DNA from: Mycoemilia scoparia | Taxonomy: Eukaryota > Kickxellomycota > Kickxellomycetes > Kickxellales > Kickxellaceae | NCBI GenBank assembly: GCA_027575805.1 | Contig: JANBPU010000244.1 | Location: 1 to 24,045 of the forward strand | Length of the DNA stretch: 24,045 bases | Reading direction: 5' to 3' | Part shown: piece by piece, positions 8,485-22,865 of the stretch | How the letters are laid out: every line of letters begins with the position of its first letter | Numbering within the stretch: position 1 is the first letter of the stretch | Notes under the pieces: model-generated | Told to the model about the DNA's origin: nothing | What the model saw: the letters and a program-made list of their open reading frames with translations, nothing else | Database searches by the model: none | Made by a program: the position numbers and the translations under genes

Positions 8485-10032
8485 TTAGATATTGATGATT
8501 CTTGAAAGAGCTTGGATCCGATTAAGCAGCTCATCTCCCTTCTTGACAACGCCCTGATACTGCTGGTTCTTAACATCCGGTCTGTTATTAACCACTGTGC
8601 CCTTGACTTTATCAATTGTAAAATGTAAACGGCCGGCCGTGATGAATTTGGCCAAATCATTTTCAATAAACTGCTCAGAGACACCAAACTTTTGTGCAAC
8701 ACTCTCCAACTTAATAAACCGATACGACTCAAGCAGCTGCGTATACGCACGAATCCTCATTTCGCGGACATAGAAATTCATGTGCGGATACCAAAACTGT
8801 CTAACATTCAGCACTTTGGTTTCAACATCAGCCAACGCCACAAAATACTTGTCATAAAGACAATAGTAGAAATTGCCCAGCAGCGCATCCAAATAGGGCC
8901 TGTTCTTTGCCTCCTTGGTAAATTCCGGTGAATCAATAACCTTCTTTTTCAACAGTGGTCGATCGAGTGCCAATGCGCAAGCCAATGACCCGTATTCAAT
9001 AAACTCGCTAAGGGGCATCAACTCTTCGCTCTCATAAGTGGCAATAGTTTCCAAAAACAGCTTTGAAGCACCCTCATAATCGCGCTGCCAAACCTTCCAA
9101 ATACACTGATAGGCACGAAGTCGATTGCGTCTATCCCAATCTCCCTTCTTATCAATCAGCGTTTGGGCTTTTTCAATCCACGTCTTCATTATCAGCCCTT
9201 CCTTTCTCAATGCCGGATTCTCAATTGGCACCAACGACCGATTAGCCAGCGGTTTCTGACTAGTATAGAACAATCCGATCAAAAGCAGCCCAAATGTCGC
9301 ATACATCTGCTGGTCAATCATTGTCCTTGGATCCTCAACCACTTCCTTATACAGCCCTATGGCCCGTTTATAATCTCCAATCTGAGCATGTGTCACCGCC
9401 AAATAAATCTTCAAACGGCGATACTCATCTTCATCGTTTTCCTGTTCCTCATCCATTTCTTGCTGCTGCTTCTCGATCTGTCGGGTGTTAGCTTCAGCCA
9501 ATTTTGTATACAATTCGTCTATACTCTGAACTTGATTGCCATCCAGGACCAATCCATCATGCCACACATTCTTTTTCTTCTTCTTCTTTATATTGTTGGT
9601 GTTGGTGGTGGCGACGTTTTGGGTGGGATCCTCATCCTTATAACCAGAAATTGCTTGCCTAAACAATAGTCCCAGCTTATCGGCTCCCATCAGCGCTTCA
9701 AGTTCTTGATGGACGTGTTGAAGATACGGCGCCATTCTATATCTGGCTATACTGTGAAACAATTTCTTTGCCGATTCAACCAGCTCCTTTTCAACTCTCC
9801 TCTGTACTTCATTCTGGTAGTTACCACCGCCGGTGGAGGAGGCGCTTAATTCCTCAAGTGTCTGGTAATGTACTTGGACAGCAAAAAAGGCCTGGGAAAT
9901 TGGCAATTCCGGTACTTTGGGTACAGAAGTTTGAAGAATCTTTTTCCGACTACTGCCTCCGCTTGTTGACGACTTGGCCTTGCTATTATCTGCAGTTGTA
10001 GCTGAAGAAGAGGGTGGGGGATTTGCTGGCAT
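8485..10032 (-). CDS. RPN7: 26S proteasome regulatory subunit Rpn7 (PSMD6), lid PCI protein
   Basis: A single uninterrupted frame codes 515 residues, longer than the human (389) and yeast (429) proteins. Rpn7 is a structural subunit of the 19S lid, which carries deubiquitination on the proteasome in nucleus and cytoplasm. Family signatures are clear: IGLFYTSQ, the KKGDWDRRNRLRAYQ block, VREMRIRAYTQLLESYR from about 421, then the PCI winged helix (VAQKFGVSEQFIENDLAKF, TAGRLHFTIDKV) and the C-terminal helix KKGDELLNRIQALSRIINI. The extra length is an N-terminal Ser/Ala-rich extension with a Lys/Arg patch, a lysine run (IKKKKKKN), an acidic Gln/Glu segment and a roughly 10-residue insertion before the GDWD block. 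No splice signals are needed. It is divergent from RPN6, which starts 580 bases away. Confidence 0.95.
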   Translation of the reverse strand: MPANPPPSSSATTADNSKAKSSTSGGSSRKKILQTSVPKVPELPISQAFFAVQVHYQTLEELSASSTGGGNYQNEVQRRVEKELVESAKKLFHSIARYRMAPYLQHVHQELEALMGADKLGLLFRQAISGYKDEDPTQNVATTNTNNIKKKKKKNVWHDGLVLDGNQVQSIDELYTKLAEANTRQIEKQQQEMDEEQENDEDEYRRLKIYLAVTHAQIGDYKRAIGLYKEVVEDPRTMIDQQMYATFGLLLIGLFYTSQKPLANRSLVPIENPALRKEGLIMKTWIEKAQTLIDKKGDWDRRNRLRAYQCIWKVWQRDYEGASKLFLETIATYESEELMPLSEFIEYGSLACALALDRPLLKKKVIDSPEFTKEAKNRPYLDALLGNFYYCLYDKYFVALADVETKVLNVRQFWYPHMNFYVREMRIRAYTQLLESYRFIKLESVAQKFGVSEQFIENDLAKFITAGRLHFTIDKVKGTVVNNRPDVKNQQYQGVVKKGDELLNRIQALSRIINI

Positions 10033-10612: not shown

Positions 10613-12189
10613 ATGACTCAGACATCAGCTGAATTGCTACAACAAAAAGAAAAGGAACATATCTCTATTATTGAAAGTTATCAGCCTCCGGCCACCACAA
10701 CAGCAGATAATGATGGCAATGCCACCAGAGGTAAACCAGCACCGCATTTATTTTATACCCATAGCAATAATAAAACTGTCCAACAAAACCAAACCACATA
10801 ATTAATTTAGTAGAAGACGATTCGAATGCGCCTGTTAGCGAAGGTCCAACTCTTGAACAAGTCGAAGCCGCACTGTACGGCCTCTGGATCCTATACCAAA
10901 CAAATAACTATGGGCCAGGCTTCGACTACCTAATCGAAAAATTCAAACCAATCTTGGCCACCAAGTATAAGACCAAATCCGACCAAATTCTTTTGAAATT
11001 AATGAGCCAGGTAGTTCGAATTCCCCGCAAAATAGCCTCCCCCTCGTCTTCTTCAGAAGCTGCCGCTGCCTATGAGACTGAGCCCCAACTTGCTCTGCTT
11101 GACAAAATGATCAAAGAAGCCACCCAAAATGGTCGTACTCAACTGCGTCAAAAACTCCAAATCCAACTCATGGACTTTTGTGTTGTCCAAAAGCCCCAAG
11201 CCGATCTCGACGACATGATCAAAAACTTGCTAAAAGAAATGAAGAAGCTTGATGACCAATTGCTGAGTACTGAAATCTTTTTGTTACAGAGCAGATTGTA
11301 TTTTGGCGTTGGGAATATGTCTGAATCCCGGACTTCAATGACTAACGCTAGAACTGCCGCTAACCAGACTGGTGTTCCCCAGATTTTGCAAGCAGATTTG
11401 GATTTGCAGTTGGGTATTCTGCATTGCGAGTCACAAGACTTTGCCAATGCCAGTTCGTGTTTCATGGAATCATTGGAAGCCTTGGCTAGAGAAGAGGATA
11501 GAAGACGGAAAGTATTTAATCAACATGAAGCAGCCGATAATGAATCTCAACGCCAAAATAACGATGAGGGCCACCATAGTGAGTTGGAGAAGGCTATGGT
11601 TGATTTCGAAAGAATGGAGACTGAATTCCTTTTGGCCAAGATTGTTCAGAAGCAATTGGAAAGCGTGGTTTATTTGTTATTATGTAAGATCATGTCTCAT
11701 GAGCCTGATCAGGTCAACAAAGTGTTGGAGAAGAATCCTCGTGCCTTGCCATTCAAAGACCACAAGATTGTGCAGGCTTTGATTAAGATCTCAGAAGCAC
11801 AAAAGAAGCGCGAATTCAAGACTTTTAATGAGACATTGGCTCATTTCCAGTTGGAAATTGGTGAATATCGTTTGCTGGATAAGCAAGTCCGTTTGCTTTA
11901 TAATGATATGATCGAAAAGAATTTGTTGCAAGTATTGAAACCCTATTCATCGGTCGAAATCCAGCATGTTGCTAATTTGGTCGGATTACCTATTTCGCCA
12001 GTTGAATCGTATCTTTCGAAAATGATTTTGGACAAGACGTTGTCAGCCATTTTGGATCATGATAAGGGCCAATTGCAGATTTTGGATGTTGGAAAGGCTG
12101 ATCAGTCGTATTCTACAGTGTTGGAAACGATCGAGAATATCAATGGAGTTGTTGATTCGCTTTATAATAAGGCTTCTAAGCTTGCCTAG
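10613..12189 (+). CDS. RPN6: 26S proteasome regulatory subunit Rpn6 (PSMD11), lid PCI protein
   Basis: There are two exons, 10613-10730 and 10811-12189, coding 498 residues. The 80-base intron has donor GAG/GTAAAC and acceptor TTTAG, with split codon G|TA (Val). Rpn6 is a helical-repeat lid subunit that clamps the 19S particle to the 20S core. Family blocks are LLSTEIFLLQSRLYFGVGN, SMTNARTAANQ, LQLGILHCESQDF, VYLLLCKIM, and the PCI/winged-helix end RLLYNDMIEKNLLQVLKPYS, VESYLSKMILDKTLSAILD and GVVDSLYNKASKLA. The last matches the conserved C-terminal helix. Differences are a long acidic N-terminus and an insertion of about 50 charged residues (REEDRRRK to EFLLAK) before the LLCKIM helix. The start ATG has the context GAAAAATGA and is followed at once by the expected N-terminal region. 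Confidence 0.95.
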
Positions 12190-12727: not shown

Positions 12728-13336
12728 TTATTGTTCGCAATTTAATGGCAAGGTTTGAATTTCTGTCTTATTATAGGCGGTATAATAGTTGACAACAAGA
12801 GATGTTTTATAACGACCAACGCTAGCCACCGTCATAGCTGGATGCATTAGGAATTGTACTTTCTTGTTAACCTTTGGGTCTAACCAATTATCCAAAACCT
12901 TCTCAGGGCTTAGATTTTTATTTTTTGCTGTGTATGATTCAGTAAAATATGCTGTCATAGGAACTCTATTGCCATTGGGCAATTTATCGCCATAGCCATA
13001 CCATTTTGTGGTATAACCATTGCTTGGGTTATACAGTATTTTGGCAAGCGAATCGGCAATATAGGACAGTGCAGAGTGAGTTGCAAGGGGCGGTAGGCCA
13101 ATTGATCGACGCTTCTTGTCAAGTTCACATAAAAAGCTCTTTTCCCATGAATCCAGTGGTATTTTATTGCTACTACTACGCTTGTTGATGCTAGATCCTG
13201 CTGCTGCCGGGTCAGGGTGTTTCGAAGAGGCGGTGGGGTTTATTTTGGCTGCGTTAGCGCCAATATTGGTATAGAGGGCTACTGATAGGCAGAGGAAGAC
13301 GAATAGCTTGAGAGAACTAAAACTGGTTAAAATCAT
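12728..13336 (-). CDS. Secreted CAP/SCP-like protein (divergent)
   Basis: The frame could start at 13426, but the ATG at 13336 is preferred: it begins 202 residues with an immediate signal peptide (MILTSFSSLKLFVFLCLSVA, cleavage likely after GANA). The longer start would put a CT-repeat-coded SLSLSLS segment in front. A pro-like segment ends in NKR, a Kex2-type site, before the domain. The domain opens FLCELDKKRRSIGLPPLATH, resembling the first helix of CAP (PR-1/SCP) proteins. It ends with a region like the family's HxxMTxxxxG strand (LMHPAMTVASVGRYK, LVVNYYTAY). Two Cys, near the domain start and at the NCEQ end, could pair. The central catalytic-like His/Glu set of classical CAP proteins is not clear, so the assignment is tentative. 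Likely exported to the cell wall or medium. A TATAAATA on the same strand lies near 13550. Confidence 0.6.
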   Translation of the reverse strand: MILTSFSSLKLFVFLCLSVALYTNIGANAAKINPTASSKHPDPAAAGSSINKRSSSNKIPLDSWEKSFLCELDKKRRSIGLPPLATHSALSYIADSLAKILYNPSNGYTTKWYGYGDKLPNGNRVPMTAYFTESYTAKNKNLSPEKVLDNWLDPKVNKKVQFLMHPAMTVASVGRYKTSLVVNYYTAYNKTEIQTLPLNCEQ

Positions 13337-15225: not shown

Positions 15226-15633
15226 TTATTGTTCAACATCAACATCAACATCAACATCATCATTATCATCGTTATCAGCGCCGTTATTGTTATCGGGATT
15301 GCTACCATCATCATTATCATCGTCATCAGCGCCGTTATTGTTATCAGGATTGCTATCATCATCATCATCATTGTCATTACCACTACTGCCGTCATTGATG
15401 CTGGTTGGGATAGGAATAATATCTGGATCATTTATAAGAGTAACATCATAAGGAGGTAGACCCCAGTACCAAGGACCGCACCCACAATCAATACACATGC
15501 AATATGCGAGTTCAGTGTTATATGGATATTTTAGGAGGATTCGGGCTGGGAATCCGAGTACCAGCAGAAGAGATGGAACCAGGGTTCCAGCCAGCAATGT
15601 TGTGGCAATAGTGGGATAAGTTGTAGCTTTCAT
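15226..15633 (-). CDS. Small secreted CxCxxCxC protein 1, with acidic repeat tail
   Basis: The 135-residue protein has three parts. First is an N-terminal hydrophobic signal segment (MKATTYPTIATTLLAGTLVP onward). Next is the family signature AYCMCIDCGCGPWYW (C44, C46, C49, C51) followed by a Pro/Tyr patch. Last is a long Asp/Asn tail. The tail holds two copies of a 17-residue unit (SNPDNNNGADDDDNDDG), coded by a 51-base tandem repeat, and ends VDVDVDVEQ. No known domain is recognised. Four closely spaced Cys could bind metal or form disulfides, and the acidic tail could bind cations; both ideas are inference. A TATAAATAA on the coding strand lies at 15729-15721, about 90 bases before the ATG. 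It is the only family member with the acidic tail. Confidence 0.7.
   Translation of the reverse strand: MKATTYPTIATTLLAGTLVPSLLLVLGFPARILLKYPYNTELAYCMCIDCGCGPWYWGLPPYDVTLINDPDIIPIPTSINDGSSGNDNDDDDDSNPDNNNGADDDDNDDGSNPDNNNGADNDDNDDVDVDVDVEQ
15237..15375. repeat. Tandem repeats coding the acidic tail
   Basis: A CAACAT hexamer array (about 15237-15258) is followed by a 51-base unit repeated about twice and then ATC triplets. All are in frame with the minus-strand gene and code Asp/Asn-rich sequence, so copy number could vary without frameshift. Confidence 0.85.
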
Positions 15634-15720
15634 GACTATTTATTTAAAATACGATATGAAGGGGATGGTTGTATTTGTATTTTGTTTTATCGTGGTGTTA
15701 TTTTTGAAGAATGCGTGCCT

Positions 15721-15729
15721 TTATTTATA
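15721..15729 (-). promoter_or_regulatory. TATA box of secreted protein 1
   Basis: TATAAATAA on the minus strand, about 90 bases upstream of the ATG at 15633. Confidence 0.55.
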
Positions 15730-15733
15730 CAAC

Positions 15734-16272
15734 AAAGCACCTTACATTGGCCCATTTCTCTCCCTCTCTCATTCTATGGCATATTCCTATTTTAAAACTA
15801 GAAGTAGGGCACATCCACAAAAATATACTCTAACCTCCTTATTTTCCAGCTCATCGTTACTACTGCCTTCATTTGATTGAGTTATCATTCGTTCATCGAC
15901 TTGTATACAGACAGACGGACAAAGCAAAGATTTTTGGACGTTATGATCGAACTCTTTCTACAACGGGATTTACTGCATTTTACAACTATACTGACGACAA
16001 GTCAATCCTACTACTGCTGTCAGCATTTATATTTCTTTTTTTTCCATGATAGACAAATAAATTTCTGGAAATCTTATTTAAGGCCCTGATGTTGTGTATT
16101 ATGTTTACAATTGAAATGCGCACACTTGGACGCATTCATATATTTATCAAATGTAGTTTATACTGATTGTAAAAGAGCCGATATATTATATTTACCAGTA
16201 ACCACCACTACTCTGAAACTGATACATTTCTAAAAAGAAGTCTTGGTGCTAAGACGGTCAAAGGTATGGCCA
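15734..16272. other. Intergenic region, no supported gene
   Basis: This lies upstream of secreted protein 1 and downstream of the KR-type peptide gene. Frames of 60-80 codons on the plus strand have no family resemblance or coding-like composition. Confidence 0.5.
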
Positions 16273-16416
16273 AAGTCCACAAGGCCTTAGGCAAACTGGG
16301 GCCACAGGCACTGCATATGAAATTGAAATAGCTCATGATTGGGTCGAAATCTGATGAGGACGCACTATTTCTGCCTACTACCATAGATTCGACCACTAGT
16401 GGAGCCTCAGCATATA
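16273..16416 (+). repeat. Dispersed element D, copy C
   Basis: The most complete copy, from AAGTCCACAAGGCCTTAGGC to the GCCTCAGCATAT end, including CTACTACCATAGATTCGACC and the 10-base palindrome CCACTAGTGG. It ends about 15 bases from the stop codon of the adjoining minus-strand peptide gene, so it probably lies in that gene's 3' UTR. Confidence 0.6.
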
Positions 16417-16431
16417 TAAATCACCTCGATA

Positions 16432-16599
16432 TTAGCAGCTGATTCCACAAGGACATTTCTTACTATTACCACGCACGCACATGCGTTTCCCAAACCCATA
16501 TCTCGCAACTTTTGGTTCTGGAAGTGCTGGCGGTAGAGCCAAAGCCATCTTCATCACAACAACAGCCAAGGCGGTTAGTACCAAAGTAAATTTTATCAT
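16432..16599 (-). CDS. Peptide precursor: signal peptide, KR site, 16-residue four-Cys peptide
   Basis: The 55-residue frame reads MIKFTLVLTALAVVVMKMALA (secretory signal), then a short pro-segment (LPPALPEPKVARYGFG), then KR at 38-39, then MCVRGNSKKCPCGISC and the stop. The layout is that of a Kex2-processed secreted peptide such as a defence or signalling peptide; no known family is recognised. Spacing of the cysteines is C-x7-C-x-C-x3-C. It lies among the CxCxxCxC genes on the same strand and shares with them small size, a signal peptide and a CPC pair (compare GCPCDP in member 4). The length is below 60 residues, so standard gene callers could miss it. What it does is unknown. Transcription is not shown. 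Confidence 0.6.
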   Translation of the reverse strand: MIKFTLVLTALAVVVMKMALALPPALPEPKVARYGFGKRMCVRGNSKKCPCGISC

Positions 16600-16639
16600 C
16601 GCTTAGAACCAAAGTGACTGTATATAGTTAGTATCGGAG

Positions 16640-16938
16640 ATCGAAGAAGAATAAAAGAGTGCGTGTGAGTGGGCGGATGAGCGAGGAGATAAAGGATACT
16701 CATATACCTGTATACACGCCTAAAGGCCTGTAAAGTGGTTAATTGGTTTAGGGATTCTCTATCAATATGCAGACTTATTCTAACCCTTTGTTTTACTATA
16801 GAGTTGCATACATAAATCGCATATAATATGAAGCAGAGCGCAATTCATGGCTTAAGTTAGAGTTTCGAAATTTAATCATGATATTGATTTAAACCACTAC
16901 ACTTGACTAATAAATTATCAAAAAGCTTAAAACTTGCT
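16640..16938. other. Intergenic region, no supported gene
   Basis: Upstream of the KR-type peptide gene. A TATATGAG on the minus strand near 16700 might be its TATA element. No coding frame is credible. Confidence 0.45.
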
Positions 16939-17163
16939 TCAGCTGATCGTTGCTGATGTAGTGTCTTTATCAAGAGAAGGTAGATACAGCGGTGGTTTGC
17001 TTAGCCACGGACCAGGATTGCATTCGCAAGGAATGCAAAAGCAGTAAAGGAGAGCTTGTTCTGTGGCCACATCTTTTGGTATCGGCGAAGCAAATGTACA
17101 GGTTGTAGTAATTGCTGAAAGACCAGCAATAATAGCGATAACAATAGTGCCAAATAGTTTCAT
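16939..17163 (-). CDS. Small secreted CxCxxCxC protein 2
   Basis: The 74-residue protein begins MKLFGTIVIAIIAGLSAITT, a clear signal peptide, with likely cleavage after TFA (before SPIPKD). The signature is LLYCFCIPCECNPGPW (C41, C43, C46, C48), followed by a Pro/Leu/Tyr patch (KPPLYLPSLDKD) like that of member 1 (LPPYDV). It then ends in Thr/Ser. One extra Cys lies at the end of the signal region. Its TATAAAAG is 83 bases upstream at 17246-17239. There is no recognised function; the four-Cys cluster suggests metal binding or a compact disulfide knot. The single exon, size and layout match the other members. Confidence 0.75.
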   Translation of the reverse strand: MKLFGTIVIAIIAGLSAITTTCTFASPIPKDVATEQALLYCFCIPCECNPGPWLSKPPLYLPSLDKDTTSATIS

Positions 17164-17238
17164 GGTTTAATGAAGAATAAATATATAGATATATAAATCT
17201 TTTGAAAGAAACCCACCCACTCCCCCCAAAAACCACCA

Positions 17239-17246
17239 CTTTTATA
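17239..17246 (-). promoter_or_regulatory. TATA box of secreted protein 2
   Basis: TATAAAAG on the minus strand, 83 bases upstream of the ATG at 17163. Confidence 0.6.
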
Positions 17247-17249
17247 CTT

Positions 17250-17624
17250 TATAGAGGTTTATCGCAGAGACTAATATAGTGTCTCTTTTGCTATAAATTC
17301 CAGAATTTAAATCGGAATTCTCTTTATCACAAAACGTTAATCCACTACTATTATTTCTGTTACCATGACACCAATAATAAAGGCTTTTGGTACTTGTATT
17401 GTCCATCGAAAAGTGCAAAGCAAGTAATCAAATAAAGAAGCGAAGAATAAAAGTAACCATGGGCTGAAGCAGTATATGGTATCGAATTTCTATAGATCTC
17501 TAACAAAATAAGGCCGCAAGCCCCACATCTGGAATGTCTCCATCTTATACTTGACAAGAAAAAGGCCAATCGCACAACAGTATCCACATATCAAACAAGC
17601 AATAGGGTCGAAGCTGCCATTAGA
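17250..17624. other. Intergenic region, no supported gene
   Basis: Upstream of secreted protein 2 and downstream of member 3. A 75-codon minus-strand frame at 17360-17587 has scattered Cys but no signal peptide and no family motif. Confidence 0.45.
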
Positions 17625-17843
17625 TTACATTGCGCCTCTACCATCACAGCCACACTCAACACACATACAAAACTCCTTTCTAGGCTTAGGATGCTCTTCG
17701 TCTTGTCCTGTGGGATGCGACGGATATAGCTGTGGATTGGCCGAATCTAATGGCGGAGTGCTTATTACGCCCAAATGTCCCAAAGCCGAGATAACAGCAA
17801 CGGTGGACATCCACACAACAAAAACCAAGCCGACACAACGCAT
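17625..17843 (-). CDS. Small secreted CxCxxCxC protein 3
   Basis: The 72-residue protein starts MRCVGLVFVVWMSTVAVISA (signal peptide), followed by a Pro/Ser/His-rich linker (STPPLDSANPQLYPSHP), a PRK basic step and the signature KEFCMCVECGCDGRGAM at the extreme C-terminus (C59, C61, C64, C66). The aromatic before the first Cys is Phe rather than Tyr. It lacks the Pro/Tyr patch seen after the motif in members 1 and 2. A minus-strand TATAAATA at about 17983-17976 lies 133-140 bases upstream. Function is unknown, but the motif position and gene layout place it in the family. Confidence 0.7.
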   Translation of the reverse strand: MRCVGLVFVVWMSTVAVISALGHLGVISTPPLDSANPQLYPSHPTGQDEEHPKPRKEFCMCVECGCDGRGAM

Positions 17844-18010
17844 CTTTTATAATATGCAGATTTCCAACTAAAATACTATATAATAAGGAAAAATAAAGCG
17901 AAAAGATGGTAGTAATAATTTGTTGCTCAAAAAAAAACACCCCCCTCAAAGAATAAAAGGAAAAGAGGGCTGAGATATTTATACAATCCTAATCTTCAAG
18001 GGAAGGACAC

Positions 18011-18105
18011 AGCTTGAAGGGCCAAATTAATATTATCAATGATAATATAGCCTGGCCAGTATGCATGATAAAACTACTGACCTACTGGTTAAAAAAAATC
18101 ACCCA
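18011..18105 (-). mobile_element. MITE copy M3 (inverted relative to M2)
   Basis: Read on the minus strand it matches M2 at 19353-19475. Shared blocks on the plus strand here are GAAGGGCCAAATTAATATTA, GATAATATAGCCTGGCCAGT and the ACTACTGACCTACTGGT end. It contains the small palindrome TATTATCAATGATAATA. It has no coding capacity. Confidence 0.65.
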
Positions 18106-18543
18106 TATTTTCCTTTTTAAGTTCCATAATAAACTCCACATGTAAACAAGGCTTGAGCAGCCATATTGTATTATAGTTCTTGCATTGCTGCAGCCGCCTC
18201 AAATAACGCCACACATATATTTGGGTGCTTTTTTTGTGCTCAAGATTGTCCCAGTGGGGCTCTATAAAAATGGACATTCCAGAAACTCCGAATCTATTTA
18301 TAACATCAACAACTAAAACAATAGAGCAATTTTATTAAGTATTTGAAATAGAAAGAATATTATCAAAAGCAAGGTTATTAAAGGATTTCTTATCAGCAGC
18401 AGCTACATTATTACTATGGGCCAGACACGAGACTACGAATACATGAGTTGAAGAAAGAGAAGACGGCCAGCCCACTCCCAGAACATCGTCGTCATAGTTG
18501 TTAGTTATTATCAGCGAGAGAGCCATGAAGAAGCCAGATTGGT

Positions 18544-18759
18544 TTAGTTGGCGGGTAGTTGGTTTAGATGATCAGAGTAGTTTGGGTCGCAAGGACATCC
18601 ATAGCACATACAATAATATACTGGTGGCTTCTGGATAGGCCTGGGCACGCGAGTCGGCAAGGGGCGGGAACCAGCTGGCGTGGCAGCAAGTGGCGAGGCT
18701 ATAGTAGAGATGCAAACAACCAGAGAAGCAGCTGTAGCAGTGACAATCGAAAACTTCAT
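18544..18759 (-). CDS. Small secreted CxCxxCxC protein 4
   Basis: The 71-residue protein opens MKFSIVTATAASLVVCISTI with probable cleavage near ASPLA. A Pro/Arg-rich linker (RPLPTRVPRPIQKPP) follows, then the signature VYYCMCYGCPCDPNYSDH (C50, C52, C55, C57) and a short tail ending QLPAN. The MCxxC core with an aromatic before the first Cys is shared with members 1-3. The linker's basic sites could be protease targets. A CTATAAATAG on the minus strand at 18875-18866 lies about 110 bases upstream. Function is unknown. The gene sits between the inverted MITE copies M3 and M2. Confidence 0.72.
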   Translation of the reverse strand: MKFSIVTATAASLVVCISTIASPLAATPAGSRPLPTRVPRPIQKPPVYYCMCYGCPCDPNYSDHLNQLPAN

Positions 18760-18865: not shown

Positions 18866-18875
18866 CTATTTATAG
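18866..18875 (-). promoter_or_regulatory. TATA box of secreted protein 4
   Basis: CTATAAATAG (minus strand), about 107-116 bases upstream of the ATG at 18759. Confidence 0.6.
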
Positions 18876-18879
18876 CTAA

Positions 18880-19352
18880 CCCTCATGCCTTATTCAGTGT
18901 TCTGGAAGCACCGGCCTGCGTGCTGAAATATATGCTTACCTATTCGTCTCTTGCACCAACACCAGAAGCAAAAACAATAGAAGCAACCCCAAAAGAGAGA
19001 TGAGGAGTGAATAGGACACTAGCACAGGGCAAGACCCATGTGAGGAATCTCCAATAATGTTGTTGGCCCCACAGCCTGAAATACCAGATTATTATACTTT
19101 GTAGCAACTGCGACTGTGTTTGTACCACATGTCGGCCATTATTCTCCAAGTGCCCTGCACAAATCGCTGCTGGGGACAAAGATTTCTTTAAATTCATGCA
19201 TGCAAATAATAATGCAAATCCCCTGTCTCTCTCCCTCTCTAGCAAAAAATAGGGGACTGTGCTATATCTCCACTTCAAACGTTTTTAAAGTCGGTTAAAT
19301 TCAAGTTAATATTCCTGGTATTTTTGCTGTTACTAGTAGATAAATGTGGGTG
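18880..19352. other. Boundary between the secreted-peptide and zinc-finger clusters
   Basis: No supported gene. A plus-strand frame around 19098-19130 codes a Cys-dense string (CSNCDCVCTTC) but has an upstream stop and no ATG. The switch from minus-strand to plus-strand genes takes place here. Confidence 0.45.
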
Positions 19353-19920: not shown

Positions 19921-20133
19921 ATGTATTCTAAAGAAGACACGGTTAGCATCTTCCAATATGAGGATACTGTAATGGACATCAATGAACGACCTCCAAGTAG
20001 AACGAAAATAGAACCCCTTTCTTCTGACGATGACGATGATTATGATTATAGATCCTTAAGATGTTTTGAATGTGACAGGCTTTATGACTGTCCTATAAGA
20101 TTTTATTATCATATAATCCAATGCATAAGGTAA
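19921..20133 (+). CDS. Single-finger microprotein Z1 (C2HC)
   Basis: The 70-residue protein starts in a good eukaryotic context (CAAAAAATG). It has an acidic middle (SSDDDDDYDY) and one zinc-finger motif at the C-terminus: RCFECDRLYDCPIRFYYHIIQC, which reads C-x2-C-x12-H-x3-C. There are no other domains, no signal peptide and no transmembrane segment. One finger alone rarely gives specific DNA binding, so a role in protein contact, dimerisation or RNA binding is as likely. It heads a row of four such genes on the plus strand. The stop overlaps an AG/GTAAAT sequence, so a splice here extending the protein is possible but not needed. Confidence 0.7.
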   Translation: MYSKEDTVSIFQYEDTVMDINERPPSRTKIEPLSSDDDDDYDYRSLRCFECDRLYDCPIRFYYHIIQCIR

Positions 20134-20836: not shown

Positions 20837-21037
20837 ATGCTCTCCAGATATTTGTCGTCAGTCAAAAAGAATAACGATACCCCCATTTCCTTAGCCAATT
20901 CTCGCAATTCAGATGTTGCTGACCCAGATAATCAAATTACCCCATTTACCACAAACCATAGAAAGTGTCCCAAATGTGGTTTGGTTTTCTCTAAACCCGA
21001 AAATGTAATAATGCACTTGTATCGATGCAAGGCATAA
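20837..21037 (+). CDS. Single-finger microprotein Z2 (C2HC)
   Basis: The 66-residue protein starts at GAAAAATGC. A polar N-terminal two-thirds without recognisable domain is followed by the finger KCPKCGLVFSKPENVIMHLY-RC, a C-x2-C-x12-H-x3-C arrangement with the conserved Phe four residues after the second Cys, as in C2H2 fingers. The protein ends two residues after the last ligand. The layout is the same as in Z1, Z3 and Z4, but N-terminal sequences are not alignable by eye, pointing to an old or fast-evolving duplication. Function is unknown. Confidence 0.75.
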   Translation: MLSRYLSSVKKNNDTPISLANSRNSDVADPDNQITPFTTNHRKCPKCGLVFSKPENVIMHLYRCKA

Positions 21038-21365: not shown

Positions 21366-21566
21366 ATGCTCACTAAAAACAAACCAAATTATCATCCGGT
21401 GCCATTCGATAATGATGATGCTGGCTTGGTTATCGATCATCACCCTACCGCAGACAACAATCCAGAGCAAAAGCTCTATAAGGATGGCTTGTGTTGCATC
21501 AAATGTGGGGAGATTTGTGACAGCGGGACGGAATTTATACGGCATTTAAATGAGTATGAACATTAA
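21366..21566 (+). CDS. Single-finger microprotein Z3 (C2H2)
   Basis: The 66-residue protein starts at AAAAAATGC, with the same A-rich leader as Z1 and Z2. The N-terminal part is acidic (DNDDAGLVIDHH). The terminal finger is LCCIKCGEICDSGTEFIRHL-NEYEH. Ligands fit C-x2-C-x12-H-x5-H, a spacing slightly longer at the end than usual, and the conserved Phe after the second Cys is replaced by Cys (GEIC). The motif is therefore the most degenerate of the four. There are no other features. It lies 328 bases after Z2 in the same direction. Confidence 0.68.
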   Translation: MLTKNKPNYHPVPFDNDDAGLVIDHHPTADNNPEQKLYKDGLCCIKCGEICDSGTEFIRHLNEYEH

Positions 21567-22670: not shown

Positions 22671-22865
22671 ATGTATCTCAAAGATAAATTCATTTACTCG
22701 TACAGTTCTTGTGACGAGACATCATCGTATCTAGGAAACACAGATTGTATCCCTCAAAGTTATTATGAAAACTCCTTTTCAAAAAACTTTTTAATCTGTC
22801 CCAAATGTAAAAGAACTTTCTATAATAATATGGAATTTTATTTACATTCGTCAAGTCATTGCTAA
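22671..22865 (+). CDS. Single-finger microprotein Z4 (C2H2)
   Basis: The 64-residue protein starts at GCAAAGATGT. The N-terminal region is Ser/Tyr-rich (YSYSSCDETSSY), then comes the terminal finger ICPKCKRTFYNNMEFYLHSSSH followed by a final Cys: C-x2-C-x12-H-x3-H. The CPKC and Phe-x8-H layout closely matches Z2. No second finger, nuclear signal or secretion signal is evident. It is the last member of the row; 22866-23333 holds no further copy. Function is unknown. Confidence 0.72.
   Translation: MYLKDKFIYSYSSCDETSSYLGNTDCIPQSYYENSFSKNFLICPKCKRTFYNNMEFYLHSSSHC

Follow-up and report, generated by a model that had tools for sequence, protein, structure and literature searches.

The stretch of DNA analyzed here, referred to below as the window, comprises 24,045 nucleotides from the kickxellomycete fungus Mycoemilia scoparia and is the whole of contig C162 (JANBPU010000244.1) of an assembly (GCA_027575805.1; 466 contigs, 21.16 Mb) that we also scanned in full. 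Translation of its open reading frames (ORFs) yielded four small predicted genes, g1 to g4, which all lie on the minus strand within 3.5 kb and run uninterrupted from ATG to stop, encoding proteins of 135, 74, 72 and 71 amino acids (aa), respectively. The initial annotation had placed all four correctly, to the nucleotide. The g1 ORF (15226 to 15633) combines a hydrophobic N-terminus with the core sequence YCMCIDCGC (15478 to 15504, 43 residues after the start and 83 before the end) and an acidic Asn/Asp-rich tail, which is encoded by a 51-bp tandem repeat present in 2.4 copies (15255-15377). In g2 (16939 to 17163), the core YCFCIPCEC (17020 to 17046, 39 residues after the start and 26 before the end) is followed by NPGPW. 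The g3 ORF (17625 to 17843) carries its core, FCMCVECGC, 57 residues after the start and 6 residues before the C-terminus (17646 to 17672), while g4 (18544 to 18759) has a Pro-rich linker and the core YCMCYGCPC (18589 to 18615, 48 residues after the start and 14 before the end). The proposed shared core, [YF]-C-[MF]-C-x2-C-x-C, was confirmed in all four ORFs.

An upstream TATA box had also been claimed for each gene, and TATAAA is indeed present on the same strand 83-140 bp before the ATG in every case: at 15724 to 15729 for g1 (96 bp upstream), twice within 17241 to 17253 for g2 (90 and 83 bp), at 17978 to 17983 for g3 (140 bp) and at 18869 to 18874 for g4 (115 bp). The probability of a chance occurrence per gene is about 5.7% for a 58-bp search interval and 13.6% for one of 150 bp, the width of the interval having been picked after the sites were seen.

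The four proteins are short (71-135 aa) and begin with Met followed by Lys or Arg, with a hydrophobic stretch close to the N-terminus that forms a putative signal peptide as judged from hydropathy. The hydropathy peak (9-residue Kyte-Doolittle mean) ranges from 2.67 to 3.24, bearing out the hydrophobic N-terminus suggested earlier for each of them. A hydropathy of 2.6, a cut-off chosen after the members were seen, is reached by 43 of the 263 ORFs of 50-150 aa that the window and the 14 loci fetched contain, and six of these 43 also start with M-[KR]; by value, g1 to g4 are four of these six. Additional Cys residues (C22 of g2, C3 of g3 and C16 of g4) all fall within the putative signal peptides, which for C22 requires cleavage at or after residue 22; a candidate site lies after residue 25. 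The predicted mature parts, as read from the sequences, contain exactly four Cys in each of the four members, all inside the nine-residue core. An even set of Cys in the mature part is a feature of fungal small secreted Cys-rich proteins, and all four members share it.

Such fungal proteins include orphan families of small secreted proteins (SSPs). The likeness to these families extends to the short length, the hydrophobic N-terminus, the Cys-rich mature part, the clustering of paralogues and the divergence outside the Cys residues. However, g1 to g4 have four Cys only, packed into nine residues, and the core is their sole clearly conserved part. The Y/F/WxC candidate effectors of powdery mildews, defined in PMC3582587 by an aromatic-x-Cys motif within the first 30 mature residues, are likewise small, secreted and expanded into families with an aromatic-plus-Cys signature. 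Here, in contrast, the signature is [YF]-C-x-C and no plant host is known; Spiromycetales, which include Spiromyces and Mycoemilia, are generally regarded as saprophytic according to PMC13276500. Assignment to the plant effectors was rejected, with the literal [YFW]xC present in one of the four members (g4, YYC) and no known host.

Searches for known relatives returned little. No Pfam family matched g1 to g4, or the neighboring ORF g5 described below, above its curated cut-off; the only weak row was GPHR_N (E 0.073) over the N-terminus of g2. A profile search of the PDB gave no match, and searches of 5.8 billion proteins returned the window's own g1 alone, under conditions where weak short relatives would miss the E 10 limit. 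The g1-led search of this protein set excluded proteins of 74 aa or less by a length rule. The g2-led search scored 55 candidates and returned g1 but not g2 to g4 themselves, so that small ORFs seem to be poorly represented in the set. Searches of the proteins of the M. scoparia genome with g1 (first 78 residues), g2, g3, g4 and g5 recovered the query itself only at E <= 10; since they missed even the neighboring paralogues, they provide no evidence of absence, which the pattern scans below do give. The view that these proteins belong to no described family stood up against Pfam, the PDB and the large protein set, a weak test for proteins this short, and a literature search on secreted cysteine-rich proteins of Kickxellomycotina found nothing. 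We regard g1 to g4 as a candidate new orphan family, with no relative in the libraries tried.

To ask how unusual the core is, we used a strict scan of the genome for the DNA form of [YF]CxCxxCxC in which the fourth x codon does not begin with T, a rule that removes most CTG/TTG repeats. It found 38 places, four of them the cores of g1 to g4, versus nine places for the reversed control pattern. Of the 34 outside the cluster, 31 were examined with their flanks (all but C356, C409 and C418), and M or F separates the first two Cys at three of these 34 outside places (C69, C322 and C334). By arithmetic, about 0.0005 strict cores with M or F are expected per 3.5 kb versus four seen, a restriction derived from the members themselves; the expectation is about 0.006 when it is lifted. 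The open pattern occurs at 200 places compared to 33 for its control, many being simple repeats by eye among the matches listed. In Markov-simulated windows, under a model that ignores repeats, it occurs on average 0.005 times versus five times in the real window. The fifth of these matches (YCFCFWCWC, 18953-18979) has no in-frame Met or signal and was set aside as chance or a relic.

The fetched loci and the window together contain 240 distinct CxCxxCxC frames, of which five have a Met followed by a hydrophobic stretch 22-120 residues upstream, a filter that a signal peptide on a separate upstream exon would escape. All of g1 to g4 pass, compared to 1/236 of the other frames (Fisher P 3.7e-8), and the one additional passing frame, in L045, is by eye unlike a secreted protein. 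A relaxed scan dispensing with Y/F found 67 places (35 for the control). Excluding the four members and five loci fetched earlier left 58 places, of which 52 are stop-free (one of the 58, C322, had also been fetched before as L051); none of the six read out of these 52 passes the filter. Two further matches were set aside: YCFCIKCSC of C334 occupies a 37-residue open frame without a Met, antisense by eye to an apparent mitochondrial peptidase gene, and CFCAECGC of C188 is found in a Met-less stop-to-stop frame of 57 aa, although an upstream exon may exist. No second secreted-looking ORF with the core was found elsewhere in the genome among the places examined, namely 31 of the 34 strict places outside the cluster and a minority of the relaxed ones. 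With the core nearly confined to the array among these places, this evidence points to a single local array.

Taken by motif, architecture and position, g1 to g4 are probably the product of a local expansion of a small, probably secreted family, as had been suggested. The explanation that we favor, to which we give a little less than an even chance, is that the four genes are tandem paralogues encoding small secreted proteins with two nested disulfides, a tight hairpin and fast-evolving tails. Once the proteins were in the secretory pathway, their four Cys would oxidize into two nested disulfides, C1-C4 around C2-C3. This would close a very short hairpin, a cystine ladder of the CxC...CxC type, that protects or presents the variable, fast-evolving tails either extracellularly or within the cell wall. 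Tandem duplication would have given rise to the cluster, followed by divergence until the core and layout alone were left. Disulfides are favored on account of the even, self-contained set of Cys, the secretory route and the hydrophobic or aromatic neighbors: the residues adjacent to Cys are Y/F and M/F, with no Lys in the core, which may suit a structural turn. Protegrins and theta-defensins are cystine-ladder hairpins with CxC motifs on two strands, and the likeness lies in these paired motifs. Unlike them, the proteins described here have two residues between the CxC pairs, are not notably cationic and gave no profile match in the PDB.

Several points weigh against this explanation. The genes are predicted from sequence alone, and the putative signal peptides are based on hydropathy alone. 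A two-residue turn and its cross-strand geometry may be unfavorable to the assumed disulfides. The AlphaFold model is poor, with a mean predicted local distance difference test (pLDDT) score of 49, a sole helix at 3-21 and no strands, and as a model says nothing for or against the hairpin. In local alignments with the core hidden and g1 trimmed to 82 residues, scores did not exceed those of shuffles in five of the six member pairs, the similarity of g2 and g4 being borderline (equalled by 20/500 shuffles). This agrees with the sequence divergence outside the core that had been noted earlier, and leaves the core, the shared layout and the tandem arrangement to carry the case for homology. Nor does codon usage separate g1 to g4 from junk ORFs.

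The last two points would equally be expected if the four ORFs were chance products or non-genes, i.e. short ORFs in AT-rich DNA that share a Cys-rich string. The window contains 59 ATG ORFs of at least 50 aa, and the absence of g2 to g4 from the g2-led protein-set results means that there is seemingly no gene call there. Nevertheless, we consider this explanation very improbable. Four strict cores with M or F lie in 3.5 kb, compared to three listed in the rest of the 21.16 Mb, and all four ORFs start with M-[KR] and a hydrophobic stretch. Moreover, each of the four Cys columns mixes TGT and TGC codons with zero replacements; synonymous variation of this kind points to selection on the protein.

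The same core could instead serve in metal binding, the proteins being secreted or wall-bound and their four reduced Cys forming a single metallothionein-like module for Cu(I) or Zn, an explanation that we judge possible but rather unlikely. Thiols are oxidized in the secretory pathway, which argues against it. Metallothioneins are Cys-rich over the whole of a short chain and have few aromatics; g1 to g4 share their CxC/CxxC clusters (C-x-C-x2-C-x-C in 4/4), but have four Cys per ~45-110 mature residues in a single module, an aromatic residue at -1 in 4/4 and M or F inside the first CxC. The long acidic tail of g1 would suit a metal binder. In the literature searched, the literal CxCxxCxC string was found in two papers, both on metallothioneins. 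In PMC1808422, CXCXXCXCCK is given as the elementary building block of Tetrahymena metallothioneins, with a Lys next to Cys; the Cys spacing C-x-C-x2-C-x-C is identical, whereas none of the four cores contains a Lys. The block is also unrepeated here, in a probably secreted precursor and with aromatic or hydrophobic neighbors. The same spacing is found inside the Cys-rich domains tabulated for plant MT2. Extracytosolic fungal precedents are Magnaporthe Mmt1, which one review places in cell walls and a second describes as not fully characterized in its role (PMC9036806, PMC12089313), and small secreted metallothioneins of Uromyces (PMC2441471).

Metal binding was accordingly ranked behind disulfides rather than taken as first choice, on the basis of the single module, the secretory route, the aromatic neighbors and the lack of a core Lys. 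A more elaborate version seems unlikely: here g1 to g4 would be a lineage-specific family of extracellular single-module metal-thiolate peptides, in which secreted precursors carry a block of the metallothionein type, have multiplied with variable tails and act outside the cell as a metal scavenger or wall-bound metal buffer. If the core does bind metal outside the cell, metallothionein-like chemistry would extend to secreted precursors. The fixed nine-residue, four-Cys core amid so much divergence offers a short synthetic target with which to separate disulfide from metal roles.

CxC and CxxC are also known redox motifs, and the central C-x-x-C flanked by CxC pairs in all four members could make these proteins small redox peptides, acting as disulfide exchangers in the endoplasmic reticulum or cell wall. 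The residues inside the CxxC differ among the members, however (ID, IP, VE and YG), and no Pfam family, thioredoxin-like or otherwise, matches above its cut-off, making such a function quite doubtful.

A fifth small ORF, g5 (16432 to 16599, minus strand, 55 aa), lies between g1 and g2. It is putatively secreted, with a hydrophobic N-terminus and a KR site followed by a 16-residue end, MCVRGNSKKCPCGISC, which contains four Cys in a pattern unlike the core. It is possible that g5 yields a processed four-Cys peptide. We rejected it as a full member of the family, since its Cys spacing differs and its masked similarity to g4 is equalled by 46/500 shuffles; it is possibly a diverged member, though membership is not supported.

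Next to the array, another local group of tiny proteins (64-70 aa) is encoded on the plus strand by ORFs at 19921-20133, 20837-21037, 21366-21566 and 22671-22865. By eye, each carries a single zinc-finger-like Cys/His motif close to its C-terminus, and they are otherwise unlike each other. Two of the four have matches to Pfam zf-C2H2, neither of which reaches the cut-off, and a genome search with the second (20837-21037) returned itself only. On the minus strand, a 202-aa ORF with a hydrophobic N-terminus (12728-13336) recalls CAP/PR-1 by eye and has no Pfam match at E 1. A plus-strand fragment at 213-875 is like the C-terminal part of a retroelement integrase, with a weak match to Pfam rve_3 below cut-off. 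Lastly, RPN7 (8485-10032, minus strand) adjoins an RPN6-type proteasome lid gene (11002-12189, plus strand). Among the best 120 of 462 matches, RPN7 is closest to its counterpart in Spiromyces aspiralis, with which it shares 52% identity across 99% of the query, followed by Coemansia proteins (44-46% identity over about two thirds of the query). On this basis the source is most probably a Spiromyces-like member of the Kickxellomycotina. At 515 aa, RPN7 is longer than most of the matches listed, and its alignment with the 468-aa Spiromyces protein spans 99% of its length.

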